Shown in pieces: positions 1,310-6,222 of a DNA stretch of 64,000 bases (within the stretch, counting starts at the first letter, position 1; each line of letters starts with the position of its first letter). The position numbers and the translations under genes were made by a program. Location of the stretch: the NCBI RefSeq assembly GCF_004360145.1, contig NZ_ML178712.1:290179-354178 (forward strand). Reading direction: 5' to 3'. The stretch is from Aliiroseovarius marinus (GTDB lineage Bacteria; Pseudomonadota; Alphaproteobacteria; Rhodobacterales; Rhodobacteraceae). The notes beneath the pieces are model-generated. The model saw only the letters and a program-made list of their open reading frames with translations. It did no database searches and was not told the origin of the DNA.

Positions 1310-1375
1310 TCTCGTATCCCTTCAACGGTTTGGGATACACCTTAGCTGACTGTCCAGTTTCCTGGGACCACTTCA

Positions 1376-1786
1376 GCCTTCGGCCAGATCATCAAATCGC
1401 TGTTCATTCTGCGCTATGTCGATGATCTGAGTCTGCGGCAGGCCATCGAGCGCCAACTCAACAAGGTTGAACTCGCCAACCGCTTCACCCGCGCCGTCGC
1501 CGTTGGCAATCCCCGCGAGTTCACCCAAGCCGAAAAAGAGGAACAGGAGATCGCCGAGGCCTGCAACCGCCTCATCAAAAACAGCATCATCTGTTGGAAC
1601 TACCTCTACCTCGCCCACCAACTCGAAAAGGCCCCGGATGAGGAAACCAGAGAAAACCTGCGGCGCACGATTGCCGCACACGCCCCAATGGCCTGGGCAC
1701 ACATCAACATGCTCGGCGAATACGATTTCTCGGAAGACAAGCTCCGTGACGCCCTCGGAATCCTCCCCCTGAAATCAACTGCCTGA
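1376..1786 (+). pseudogene. Tn3-family transposase, C-terminal remnant
   Basis: An open frame without a start encodes about 136 residues matching the extreme C-terminus of a Tn3-family TnpA. It contains GQIIKSLFILRYVDD, a QLNKVE segment, RAVAVGNPREF and the hallmark WAHINMLGEYDF near the end. It stops with TGA at 1784-1786. The upstream eight-ninths of the gene, including the DDE acidic residues, is gone; the IS3 end abuts the break. A short stub of a Tn3-type resolvase lies 4.7 kb to the right on the same strand, which suggests both are debris of one transposon. Confidence 0.8.
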
Positions 1787-1899: not shown

Positions 1900-2505
1900 T
1901 CAACACTGTCGTCGGGAAACGCTTTGGCGTCTCGTGACAAACAACGTTGCAATCGCTGCACCGATCAAAGCTCCTGCAATTGTTGCCGAGATCGTATGCT
2001 TGTCCAACATATATCGCGCGTACATCGTCATTAGCGTCACAGCCAACCCAAATACACCCAGCCAGACGCTATAGCGTCGGAACATAATCATCGCTCCAGA
2101 AGCGGCCAGCGTCGAATGGCCTGATGGAGTATTGTGCTGACTGTCAGGGCTAATGGGCCTTTGGCCAAGCCGAGTTCCCTGAATGGTGACATCATTTAGC
2201 ATTCGTTTGGGACCATGGGTGGCCACGATACCTGCAACAGTCACCACAAGAATCTGCTTCAACCCGACCACGTCCCGGCTGACCAACGCAATTGCCAGCG
2301 GCACAATACTGTTCAGGTGGCGGCCATAATCCTCGATCGCAACGACATGCGCGATTTCATGTCCGTTTTTTAATGGCTGATAATCCCGCTCCAGATTGGT
2401 TGGATAGAACATCGATGCCAAAATCAGCACCATGAGCAGTGCGAGTCTAATGGGATAGGCGCGCAGCATCGCGCCCGCCGACTGGAAAATTTCGCGAAAT
2501 GTCAT
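1900..2505 (-). CDS. PAP2-superfamily lipid phosphatase
   Basis: A 201-residue integral membrane phosphatase of the PAP2 (phosphatidic acid phosphatase type 2) superfamily. The signature is present: a Lys-to-Arg-Pro motif (KRMLN to GQRP, residues about 100-118), the PSGH motif (NTPSGHSTL), and the third motif with Arg and His (YARYMLDKH). Several hydrophobic helices surround these. The family removes phosphate from isoprenyl pyrophosphates, phosphatidate or lipid A. Its ATG overlaps the stop of the phosphoethanolamine transferase gene (ATGA), so the two are one translationally coupled unit. This order resembles the pap2 gene that accompanies mobile phosphoethanolamine transferase genes. The exact substrate cannot be read from sequence; lipid A or a diacylglycerol-phosphate product is inferred from context. 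Confidence 0.85.
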   Translation of the reverse strand: MTFREIFQSAGAMLRAYPIRLALLMVLILASMFYPTNLERDYQPLKNGHEIAHVVAIEDYGRHLNSIVPLAIALVSRDVVGLKQILVVTVAGIVATHGPKRMLNDVTIQGTRLGQRPISPDSQHNTPSGHSTLAASGAMIMFRRYSVWLGVFGLAVTLMTMYARYMLDKHTISATIAGALIGAAIATLFVTRRQSVSRRQC

Positions 2506-4160
2506 GATGCGTCCTTTGGTAGATTGAACAGATCCCGTTCAGGAAGATAGGCATCCATCGTCAGGCCAAACGCCCCAAGGATCGAATGAAAGACCAGTTC
2601 ATGGGGATTAATCTTGTCACGCATGATCATGTCATTATCCAGCCCACGGCTGGCTTTGAAGCTATCCGACATCCATACGTAGAATGGTATCAGACGCTGC
2701 TCGGGCGGGGCAACCGATATGGGGGCTCCATGCAGATACAGCCCATTCTCGCCCAATGACTGGCCGTGATCCCCGACAAAGATCATCGCTGTGCGGGTGT
2801 CTGGAATATCCGCAAGCTCTTTCACCAACTCGGAAAGAAGATAATCGTTGTAGACCAGCGTGTTATCATATGCGTTATGCAGCTCTTCCTCAGAGCATTT
2901 CGCGATCTGTACGGTGTCACACACCGGTTGGAACACACCGAATTCGGGCGAATATTTCGAATAATAAGCGGGGCCGTGGCTACCGGTCTGGTGAAGCGTG
3001 ATGAACAGGCGATCTGCCTCGGTCGATTGAATAAGCTCTGGCAGTTTCCAGAACAACGACTCGTCCAGCTTCGGGTCCGGACAATCCGCACCGTTACAGT
3101 CGGCCACCAGATCATACGCCTTGATATAATTGTCGACCTTGATAGGCGGCTCGCCGAAATTGTTCGACCGGAACTCGGTATGCACACCATGGCGCGTCAG
3201 ATAGCTTTGGATCGGCTCATGAACCGTACGGGCTGACGCGGCGTTTCCCTCGTGCGTTAACATACAGGCCAGCGCTGCTATTGTGTACGTCGCGCAGCTT
3301 TCCCCCATAGGAAGAACGGCAATGTCCGTGTCTTTCGTATACGGATTGGTGTCTTTGCCATACCCATAGTGCGCGAAGTGATCCGCACGCGCAGCTTCGC
3401 CGATCACCAAGATCACGACATCCTTCTGACCGGCTGGGACCGGAGCATCAAACTCACCATCGGGCAAAAGGACTTGCTCGCGGTTGCTCAAAGCTTGCTG
3501 ATTGGCATAGCGGGCCGCATTCACGATGTAAGACCACGGCAGCACGCGCGAGCCCATATTCTCGCCGTGAAGATCGTACCAGAACCACGTTGTGGCCGTC
3601 GAGAACGCCCATGTCAGAAGCAGACCCAAACTGACGACAAAACCTGCCAGACGCGCAAAAATACGGGGCTTCCTGATGGGCACGAACCACAGCAGCAAGA
3701 TAGCCGCAACAATTGCCGGGACCAGATAGATCAGCACGCTGGGATGCCACAGTTGGGACGCCTCGTTCTGGTCGGTATTCAGGATATTCCCGATCATCGT
3801 GCGATCCAAAACAACCGCATAGGAATGCATATAATAAAGAGCGGCCGCGTTCACCACGAGGTTGAGCGCCATAAAGCCCTTCATCAGCCGGATCGAAAAG
3901 ATCGACAACAGGAACAGAACGATACACATCACCAGAAACTGCAAAATCTGGGTCGAGATCAGCAGCAATTTTCCATCGAATGTCGCCAGATCCACCGCCG
4001 GCAAAATCACGCCTAGAACGGGGCCCTGGAACGCAGCCATATTCGCTAAGGCGTACAGCACAATGGCTGTCAGAAGTCCGAATTTCCGAGGTGTGTTCTG
4101 CGTCAAATTCTCAGTCAAAGGCACATCTTTCTGCTCACAATCAATCCGCTCTTCAGCCAA
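2502..4160 (-). CDS. eptA: EptA/MCR-type phosphoethanolamine transferase
   Basis: A 552-residue inner-membrane enzyme that moves phosphoethanolamine from phosphatidylethanolamine to lipid A or another envelope glycan, leaving diacylglycerol. Five N-terminal hydrophobic segments (about residues 27-190) precede a periplasmic sulfatase-like domain. Metal and catalytic features are visible: [14 protein letters not shown] with Glu about 255, a Thr in SCATYT (about 291) that aligns with the family nucleophile, [10 protein letters not shown], and [12 protein letters not shown] with the downstream LHG. The start is TTG at 4160; the next Met is inside the first membrane helix, so an upstream non-ATG start is needed, but its ribosome site is weak. 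It is divergent from psd, which makes its lipid donor. Assigning EptA rather than another family member (EptB, EptC, OpgE) is an inference. Confidence 0.88.
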
Positions 4161-4282
4161 GACAGCTCAAAGCCCTTGAAGCCAGTGCAAAATCCGGTGA
4201 TTTATGGGGGTCTCTACAATCTCGTTGCGCTGATGTCACTAAGCTTGTTCGTCGTAGCCACCCAATCCTTGGAGTTAAAAGT

Positions 4283-4975
4283 ATGAATGTTCTCGACTCC
4301 GTCATACTCCCCATGCACCGCGAAGGCCGCAAGTTCGTCGCGATCTTCGCCCTGATTACGATTATTGCGACCTGGCTTTGGCAGCCACTGTTCTGGCCCG
4401 GACTGGCGCTGACCGTCTGGTGTTACTATTTCTTTCGCGATCCCAAGCGGGTCGTCCCGCAGAATCCAAACGCGATCATCTCGCCTGCTGACGGCGTCGT
4501 GTCACTGATACAGGATGTGGTACCGCCCAAAGAAATGGGGCTGGGGGACGAGGCGCTGACCCGAGTGTCGGTGTTCATGAGCGTATTCAACTGCCACGTG
4601 AACCGCGCCTGTATCGACGGCGTGGTGCGCAATGTCACCTATCACCACGGCAAGTTTCTGAATGCCTCTCTGGACAAAGCCAGCGAGCATAACGAGCGCA
4701 ACTCGATCACAGTCGAACGCGCAGATGGCGTAAAAGTCGGCATTACGCAGATTGCAGGCCTGGTTGCACGCCGGATCGTCTGTTTCGTTAAAGACGGTTC
4801 ATCCCTAAGCGCTGGCGACCGGTTCGGCCTGATCCGATTTGGCAGCCGGCTCGACATTTATCTGCCCAAAGGCGCCGCACTGCAGGTGTCGCTGGGGCAG
4901 ACAACTATCGCAGGGGAAACCATTTTGGCCGATCTTGGCGACGGCGCAGACGCGCAGGTTGGGATCTCAAAATGA
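4283..4975 (+). CDS. psd: phosphatidylserine decarboxylase proenzyme
   Basis: A 230-residue enzyme of the short (archaeal/alphaproteobacterial) Psd type. It converts phosphatidylserine to phosphatidylethanolamine and self-cleaves to create a pyruvoyl group. Two N-terminal membrane segments (residues about 17-50) are followed by FFRDP, SPADGVV, and [11 protein letters not shown] with the conserved His. The self-cleavage Gly-Ser lies in RFGSRLD near residue 191. The ATG at 4283 is preceded by GGAG at 4271-4274; the frame is open further upstream, but only over the divergent eptA start region. The last bases overlap the pssA ATG (ATGA). Base composition is lower in GC than most of the window. 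Confidence 0.94.
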
Positions 4976-5733
4976 AGGACCGCGGCAAACCCCAGGCTTC
5001 GCTGAACTATTGGGCTTTGCTTCCCAACCTTGTGACGCTTCTTGCGCTGTGCACGGGCATGTCCTCGATCCGGCTGGCATTAAGTGATCGTCACGAACTT
5101 GCGGTCATCGCCCTGGTGATCGCCATGGTTCTGGACGGTCTGGACGGACGCCTTGCACGTGCCTTGAAAAGCCAATCGGAAATCGGAGCACAGCTGGATT
5201 CGCTGGCAGACTTCTTCAACTTCGGCATCGCACCGGGCCTGATCATCTATTTGGCCGTTTTTTGGGAAACGGAATATGCGAACCTCAGCTGGATCGCAGT
5301 GATGTTTCTTGGGATCTGCTGTGCCTATCGACTGGCACGCTTCAATTCGTCTGAGCCGACGCCCGCAACCGAGCATTTCGAAGGCGTCCCTGCCCCAATC
5401 CTTGCAATGCTCTGCCTGATCCCGGTCTATCTGCAACTTCTCGGTATTGATTTTGGCAAGAATTATCCTCTTTTGACCAATTTCTACCTCTTCTTCTGTG
5501 GGTATCTCGCCGTATCGCGCATTCCGACAGTTTCCCTGAAGTCTTTGAAAATACCCCACAAAGCCCAATCCTACGTGTTGGTCACGGCGGCTGTCATAAT
5601 CGGCTTGATGCTGGTCTTTCCCTGGGAAACACTAATCGCGTTCTCGGCTGTCTATCTTGTATCGATACCGGTTTTGGCGCGTCGCATTCGCTCAAAACAC
5701 TCGGATGACACCAACGTCAATCACAGCGAATGA
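4972..5733 (+). CDS. pssA: CDP-diacylglycerol--serine O-phosphatidyltransferase
   Basis: A 253-residue membrane enzyme making phosphatidylserine from CDP-diacylglycerol and serine, the step before Psd. The CDP-alcohol phosphotransferase signature D-G-x2-A-R-x8-G-x3-D-x3-D is visible around [12 protein letters not shown] to [14 protein letters not shown] (residues about 45-78). About seven hydrophobic helices follow. Its start codon overlaps the psd stop, so the pair is translationally coupled in the order psd-pssA, as in many alphaproteobacteria. The acidic hydrophilic C-terminal tail ([12 protein letters not shown]) is unremarkable. Whether this is the only chromosomal copy or a second, mobile copy cannot be decided from this window. 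Confidence 0.95.
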
Positions 5734-5742
5734 CCCCAGGGG

Positions 5743-5761
5743 CCTTTTCGTTTAGAAAAGG
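5743..5761. terminator. possible bidirectional terminator hairpin between pssA and dgkA
   Basis: CCTTTTC at 5743-5749 pairs with GAAAAGG at 5755-5761 around a five-base loop. It lies ten bases past the pssA stop and overlaps the dgkA stop, which is where a terminator for the two convergent genes would be expected. The stem is short and AT-rich, so this is tentative. Confidence 0.35.
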
Positions 5762-6141
5762 TCCAGCTCAGTCACCAGTGCGAAGATAACGTAACAACCG
5801 TTTGCACATAGAAGGCAAAACACAGCAAAGGATCCAAGATCCTTTGCATTCTTAGCAGCCTGTGACCATTCAGGAGACACAAGGTCGACGACTTCTTCTA
5901 ACCCCGTGTTCAGCGCCTCGACCGCAGATGTGACCAAGAAAAGGATGAGGGTAAGAACATAATGAATAGGGGCTACACTGGCCAACCAAAACGCCCCAAA
6001 AATCATCAGCTGTGCCGATATCTCTTGTCGAAACGCAGACTCGCGAAAAAGAACCTTCGCCCCATCAAACGAATAGCGTGCCGCTGCAAGGAAATGCGCA
6101 AACCCGGTCACTTTGTTTGGAATTTTGGGAGATCGGGTCAT
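5752..6141 (-). CDS. dgkA: diacylglycerol kinase (DgkA)
   Basis: A small trimeric membrane kinase that phosphorylates diacylglycerol to phosphatidate. It has the DgkA hallmarks: RESAFRQE with the conserved Glu, then EALNTGLEEVVDLVSPEW and AKNAKDLGSFAV, and three hydrophobic helices in about 129 residues. In Gram-negative bacteria this enzyme recycles the diacylglycerol released when phosphoethanolamine is transferred from phospholipid to envelope glycans. Its presence beside eptA is therefore functionally consistent. I chose the ATG at 6141, which has an AGG about 11 bases upstream; a GTG four codons earlier (6153) is possible. The gene is convergent with pssA. Confidence 0.93.
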   Translation of the reverse strand: MTRSPKIPNKVTGFAHFLAAARYSFDGAKVLFRESAFRQEISAQLMIFGAFWLASVAPIHYVLTLILFLVTSAVEALNTGLEEVVDLVSPEWSQAAKNAKDLGSFAVFCLLCANGCYVIFALVTELDLF

Positions 6142-6222
6142 TGGTTCGCGCACCTGAGTTTCTCAAGAAAATTATGGGTATCGACCGTCAAACGACACTG
6201 TCTTCGTCATAGGACATGGCTC

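Follow-up and report, generated by a model that had tools for sequence, protein, structure and literature searches.

The window analysed here, a 64,000-nt stretch of the Aliiroseovarius marinus genome (G000, contig C1) to which all positions refer, carries at 1900-6153 a block of five intact open reading frames (ORFs) for an LpxE-like PAP2 phosphatase, EptA, Psd, PssA and DgkA. The block looks horizontally acquired, and we lean, with considerable reserve, towards reading it as an acquired and nearly self-supplied module for the production of lipid A bearing phosphoethanolamine at its 1-position. A sequence-only reading of the locus had named the same five genes and an ATGA overlap between pap2 and eptA; all five are present, intact and Pfam-supported, and the overlap is real. 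The start of dgkA had been placed at 6141, an in-frame ATG, and its GTG start gives 6153. The features of the block are as follows.

1900-2505, minus strand: lpxE-like PAP2 lipid phosphatase, 201 aa
2502-4160, minus strand: eptA-type phosphoethanolamine transferase, 552 aa, TTG start
4161-4282, no strand: divergent eptA/psd intergenic region, presumed to hold promoters
4283-4975, plus strand: psd, phosphatidylserine decarboxylase, second genome copy, xenologous by the trees below
4972-5733, plus strand: pssA, CDP-DAG (cytidine diphosphate diacylglycerol)--serine phosphatidyltransferase, second genome copy, xenologous by the trees below
5752-6153, minus strand: dgkA, diacylglycerol kinase, second genome copy, GTG start

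These genes fill the block and form three units rather than one operon: lpxE-eptA is transcribed leftward, psd-pssA, joined by another ATGA overlap, rightward, and dgkA leftward. A promoter scan of the intergenic region 4161-4282 returned no site; this region is 80% identical to its counterpart in Aliiroseovarius halocynthiae over 121 columns, versus 73% and 77% for the coding sequence on either side. The sequence-only reading had described a closed phosphoethanolamine cycle held whole in one locus. This was too strong, as CDP-DAG synthase (CdsA), which converts phosphatidic acid to CDP-DAG, is not among the five genes, and the cycle is thus nearly, not fully, in the locus.

In the proposed scheme, each step of which is predicted from family membership, LpxE would take the 1-phosphate off lipid A at the periplasmic face, and EptA would then place phosphoethanolamine there from phosphatidylethanolamine (PE), with release of diacylglycerol. 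The two activities are described for Helicobacter pylori and Capnocytophaga canimorsus (available excerpts of PMC4730577), and diacylglycerol release for phosphoethanolamine transfer (excerpts of PMC10525099). DgkA would convert the released diacylglycerol to phosphatidic acid, in line with its recycling role as given in the available parts of PMC7559476 and PMC8027125. An assumed host CdsA, required before the PssA and Psd steps (excerpts of PMC8027125), would then make CDP-DAG from phosphatidic acid, and the PssA and Psd of the block would remake PE.

The psd, pssA and dgkA of the block are extra copies and not the native ones of A. marinus. The check proposed with the sequence-only reading, for separate psd and pssA genes elsewhere in the genome, gave a second psd-pssA pair with open frames lying side by side on contig C7 (psd at C7:2745, pssA at C7:2189), and a second dgkA was found at C1:143247. 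Maximum-likelihood trees were built from 46 Psd and 46 PssA proteins, comprising 30 best-hit family loci, 13 other genus copies, the A. halocynthiae copy, the C7 copy and one Aliiroseovarius crassostreae plasmid copy; these rows are the best matches to the window Psd and therefore sample the family unevenly, and the PssA proteins of G045 and G270 lie on long branches. The window copies pair with those of A. halocynthiae (support 100/98), and G198 joins them (100/99). The 15 native genus rows, including the C7 copy, are split from this clade (100/99 for Psd, 97/93 for PssA), and by these trees the block pair belongs to a different lineage from the native pair and is xenologous. The sister group of the window clade (91/81 for Psd, 98/89 for PssA) contains the three further genomes with EptA-psd linkage, G003, G031 and G045. 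All 46 tree rows have a PssA-like gene in the stretch that contains psd. A refuting case set with the sequence-only reading, in which the neighbouring lipid genes would be the sole, ancestral copies in all relatives, does not apply: the one psd found in A. halocynthiae is xenologous and not ancestral. In A. crassostreae, native-type psd genes are also plasmid-borne (8 records, 190-249 kb), with pssA beside psd in the one record opened (NZ_CP080785.1), and the native-type psd of A. marinus lies on a 196-kb contig (C7).

The arrangement of the five genes is not due to chance, because the same genes are found in the same order and relative orientation in A. halocynthiae, with 74-90% protein identity. 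A single BLASTN match (window 1924-6173, 4268 columns, 80.2%) joins the two sites; nothing else in window positions 1-9000 matches the A. halocynthiae stretch (L016) at E 1e-5, and DNA similarity ends at the outer genes of the block. On one side, the A. halocynthiae block adjoins genes for UbiH, an amidase, an aminotransferase and FtsK. These four are found together in A. marinus at C1:372-379 kb, some 75-82 kb from the block (the UbiH orthologue at C1:378 kb, about 82 kb away), so that the sites of the block differ between the two species. A clean insertion into an empty site is not supported, since the approximately 430 kb searched of the 669-kb contig C1 gave no match to the genes on the left flank of the A. 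halocynthiae site. The composition of the block is also distinct, with a GC content of 53.5% versus a host mean of 60.2% (standard deviation 1.7), and none of 80 windows of 4.25 kb each, drawn from 400 kb of the same contig, is as low. Around the block lie the following pieces.

1-1076 (frame from window -438), plus strand: insertion sequence (IS) IS66 transposase, PF03050 319 bits, left of the block
1346-1786, plus strand: Tn3-family transposase C-terminal remnant, PF01526 114 bits
6606-6974, minus strand: fragment of the C-terminal part of a Hint_2 domain, right of the block

Frames to the right of the block were read as what we take to be IS5-type and resolvase debris. Carriage of the block as a Tn3 passenger was considered and set aside: the window has a single occurrence of the candidate end sequence, and among the 25 of 27 pairs listed there is no convincing inverted pair around the genes. 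An mcr-type mobile element, with an intact transposase or IS and matching ends around the genes, was not found.

The block has a mosaic history. Positions 2101-3560 are 93.3% identical to A. halocynthiae, and the six remaining segments reach 70-80%. The best single exchanged tract, 2113-3587, covers the catalytic part of EptA and most of lpxE, with a divergence of 6.6% inside versus 27.1% outside and a gain of 146 log-likelihood units. Within the tract, EptA residues 187-552 have a synonymous divergence (dS, by YN00) of 0.27 and LpxE residues 1-140 one of 0.16; outside the tract it is 1.20 for the N-terminal part of EptA, 1.66 for psd, 1.50 for pssA and 1.08 for dgkA. Four core genes give 0.45, 0.56, 0.71 and 1.61. 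The eptA-lpxE tract is therefore younger than the core, its dS being below that of all four core genes; the rest of the block, with dS above three of the four, seems older than those three. The five genes are under purifying selection, with a ratio of nonsynonymous to synonymous divergence (dN/dS) of 0.06-0.18. Taken together, these comparisons suggest a separate acquisition or a deep divergence, followed by exchange of the eptA-lpxE part between the two species.

The distribution of the genes was examined by searches of sampled genomes, 295 of the family (genus representatives), 385 of the class and 398 of the phylum; the family is Rhodobacteraceae in GTDB usage, NCBI placing Aliiroseovarius in Paracoccaceae. 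EptA was found at E <= 1e-30 in 24 of the 295 family genomes, A. marinus included; at 1e-10, 2 of the 21 genus genomes had it, each with the block. A dgkA match lies in the stretch fetched around eptA for 18 of the 24. A psd lies near eptA in four of them (G000, G003, G031 and G045) which, with A. halocynthiae from the genus search, makes five family genomes. The five-gene neighbourhood is thus shared with A. halocynthiae, and overlapping sets are found in G003 and G031 (eptA-dgkA-psd-pssA) and in G045 (eptA1, lpxE, pssA, eptA2, dgkA, psd). None was found outside the family: no psd or pssA match appeared around 20 more EptA places at class level and 64 more at phylum level, in neighbourhoods of about 6 kb on each side where contigs allowed, several being cut by contig ends, with Psd and PssA profiles built from 12 Rhodobacteraceae proteins each, which distant types could escape. 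One genome from another family of the class, G407, has an eptA-lpxE pair with an EptA of 604 bits, above the NF007160 cut-off. A further genome, G036, has dgkA-psd-pssA on one strand (L105 4129-6003), and EptA was matched neither in this stretch nor, at 1e-30, in the genome as a whole; this is possibly a remnant or precursor of the linked arrangement.

Psd itself is patchy. A match at E 1e-30 was obtained in 122 of the 295 family genomes, leaving 173 without one, and when 28 selected genomes, 5 with an earlier match and 23 lacking one, were searched with a profile, Psd was found in none of the 23. Among the 21 genus genomes, Psd is found in 15, with A. halocynthiae having the block copy only, and no psd was found in 6. 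PE synthesis looks like an accessory trait in the genus and family, since native-type psd occurs on plasmids and psd was not found in those 6 genomes. Absence of psd in Thalassobius, of the same family, is in print (available parts of PMC5770400). The same excerpts cite PE detected by chromatography in some of those strains, so that another route to PE is possible. Psd is present in 22 of the 24 EptA genomes versus 100 of the 271 others (Fisher p 1.3e-7, a value too small because it ignores kinship among genomes, from a table counted by hand); the direction fits a need of EptA for PE. The two EptA genomes with no Psd match are the near-complete G114 and the 62% complete G212.

These observations bear on a first alternative, in which psd-pssA would be the selected part of the block, raising or restoring a patchy PE supply, and eptA, lpxE and dgkA would be passengers that lay beside psd in the donors. 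It is favoured by the 6 genus genomes in which psd was not found, by the reliance of A. halocynthiae on the block copy and by the wider clade, which supplies the one psd found in each of G003, G031 and G045. However, A. marinus retains its native psd-pssA pair with open frames, eptA and lpxE are themselves under purifying selection, and the latest exchange between the two species spans eptA-lpxE and not psd-pssA. We consider this alternative rather unlikely, and the reading as a lipid A modification module that includes its donor pathway is preferred.

EptA has the architecture of EptA/MCR enzymes, with an EptA_B_N membrane domain (PF08019, 1e-28, 100.5 bits) and a Sulfatase-fold catalytic domain (PF00884, 1e-40, 140 bits), both above cut-off. 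The best of 19 NCBIfam models is EptA (NF007160, 510.7 bits), a model which we take to be derived from H. pylori. The protein aligns to solved MCR-1 (9nww) and EptA (5fgn), and this alignment keeps the DHG and LH motifs expected of EptA/MCR transferases. By eye, it also conserves Glu246, Thr285 and His395 (MCR-1 numbers), given as the catalytic residues of MCR-1 in the available text of PMC10525099. It is the single EptA-like match in the genome, though five genes bear a Sulfatase domain, and it would transfer phosphoethanolamine from PE onto lipid A.

The PAP2 protein, the one PAP2 match in the genome search, belongs to PF01569 (39 bits, 6e-10), and its best NCBIfam model is lipid A 1-phosphatase LpxE (NF007159, 162.2 bits, residues 1-194 of 201). 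LpxE and other PAP2 enzymes share a three-part motif, KX6RP, PSGH and SRX5HX3D. In a five-row alignment, K100, R116-P117, PSGH, R164 and H170 are present: RP, PSGH and R-X5-H are retained, the spacing after Lys is different and the last Asp is Ala. The same change is found in three LpxE-scoring relatives, and the fifth row, which has no LpxE match, keeps the Asp. By sequence, no solved structure was matched at 0.001. An AlphaFold model from five sequences was modest (mean pLDDT, the predicted local distance difference test, 70.6); Foldseek with this model returned PAP2 enzymes of the PDB, Aquifex aeolicus LpxE (6ebu) being second with E 0.05 and none falling below 0.001. The protein is probably an LpxE-like lipid A 1-phosphatase.

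The remaining three proteins match their families as follows. Psd matches PS_Dcarbxylase (PF02666, 2e-46) and the short-type model NF003677 (361.8 bits, above the cut-off of 315), with no solved-structure match at 0.001. PssA passes the cut-off for CDP-OH_P_transf (PF01066, 4e-21) and matches solved PssA 7b1k (E 4e-10). DgkA matches DAGK_prokar (PF01219, 1e-21, 76.9 bits versus a cut-off of 22.3) and solved diacylglycerol kinase 3ze3 (E 1e-13).

EptA might instead modify another envelope acceptor, a glycan or a protein, and the PAP2 protein might be an undecaprenyl-diphosphate or phosphatidic acid phosphatase. Both proteins fall under the curated cut-offs of their lipid A models, and the PAP2 protein weakly matches an undecaprenyl-diphosphatase model (27 bits versus a cut-off of 250); but the lipid A models are by far the best for each (511 bits for EptA, 162 for LpxE), and lpxE and eptA are known to work as a unit in H. 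pylori and C. canimorsus (excerpts of PMC4730577), which makes this alternative improbable. Still less credit is given to the juxtaposition of unrelated lipid genes by mobile-element rearrangement, with no joint function, to which the IS66 gene and Tn3 remnant at the left edge and the three transcription units could point, since A. halocynthiae has the same five genes, likewise ordered and oriented, at another site that shares nothing else nearby, and overlapping sets occur in other genera (G003, G031 and G045).

Several points weigh against the module as we read it. The enzyme activities are predicted, and three of the scores lie below curated NCBIfam cut-offs: EptA at 510.7 bits versus 561, LpxE at 162.2 versus 177 and PssA at 98.1 in TIGR00473 versus 107. 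For the two lipid A enzymes, the roles given in the sequence-only reading agree with the best models, whose thresholds are not reached. No regulator, promoter or expression support was found for the block. CdsA lies outside the locus. The window type of EptA is rare, being found in 2 of 21 genus genomes and in one more of the 295 family genomes (G045), where both eptA1 and lpxE are interrupted. The linkage in G003, G031 and G045 may be housekeeping, because no second psd was found in these genomes; G114 has EptA and no detectable psd; and the fourth core gene, the amidase, has a dS of 1.6 by YN00, as high as that of the block. If the module reading holds, the donor pathway may be carried because PE synthesis is accessory in the family, an EptA that moves between hosts faring better with it. 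More broadly, and with somewhat less than even confidence, we propose a mobile envelope-modification cassette that carries the pathway for its donor lipid because its hosts cannot be relied on to make that lipid, so that LpxE-EptA could work in any CdsA-bearing recipient. The block might even become the sole source of PE, as the single psd of A. halocynthiae, a block copy, suggests.

The closest precedents are the adjacent lipid A 1-phosphatase and EptA genes of H. pylori (HP0021-HP0022) and C. canimorsus (excerpts of PMC4730577, PMC10525099 and PMC7559476), for which the same two-step logic would be expected; the likeness to the H. pylori pair is judged by family models. In H. pylori eptA precedes lpxE (excerpts of PMC7559476), as in the block, and in C. 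canimorsus the genes overlap as they do here but in reversed order. The available parts of these papers name two genes only, with no psd, pssA or dgkA, and the present block, unlike these pairs, looks horizontally moved. The sequence-only reading had seen an echo of the pap2 partner of mobile mcr genes. Transferase genes do lie beside PAP2 or diacylglycerol kinase genes, or both, in mcr-1-pap2, mcr-3-dgkA and mcr-7.1 near pap2-dgkA, with no psd or pssA named in the available text (PMC7559476, PMC10285318), and the EptA of the block is 30.5-30.7% identical to plasmid MCR-8. The hPAP2 of mcr-1 is, however, argued not to act like LpxE (excerpts of PMC7559476); by this argument and by the family scores, the mcr-1 type was set behind lpxE-eptA as a model.

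Among genomic relatives, plasmid clusters of Alteromonas and Glaciecola (CP013927 and CP002527; L043 and L044) also have PAP2-EptA with a diacylglycerol kinase a few kb away, and their EptA is 39-40% identical to that of the block; they differ in having a second EptA-like gene and other cargo, and the stretches gave no psd or pssA. The eptA-dgkA-psd-pssA sets of G003 and G031, within the family, likewise bring together transferase, kinase and donor synthesis. They differ in lying on one strand, in having no LpxE-like match and an EptA of general class that is about 30-32% identical, and in that their psd is the sole copy found in the genome. The contexts of phosphoethanolamine transferase genes, including pap2 and dgkA partners, are the subject of a survey in PMC10285318, where the word "decarboxylase" does not occur, and no description of donor synthesis travelling with such a transferase was found in the literature covered, from which most subscription papers fall out. 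Pairing of LpxE with EptA is thus already known, as is mcr with a PAP2 or DgkA neighbour, and linked donor synthesis may be new. In the printed contexts, the transferase has as its partner a phosphatase that prepares the acceptor or a kinase for recycling, and the host is left to provide PE. In the block, genes for making the donor accompany the transferase and have apparently travelled together with it, and this in a family with no Psd match in 173 of 295 genomes. This comparison raises the testable question of whether the supply of donor lipid limits which bacteria take up phosphoethanolamine modification of lipid A.

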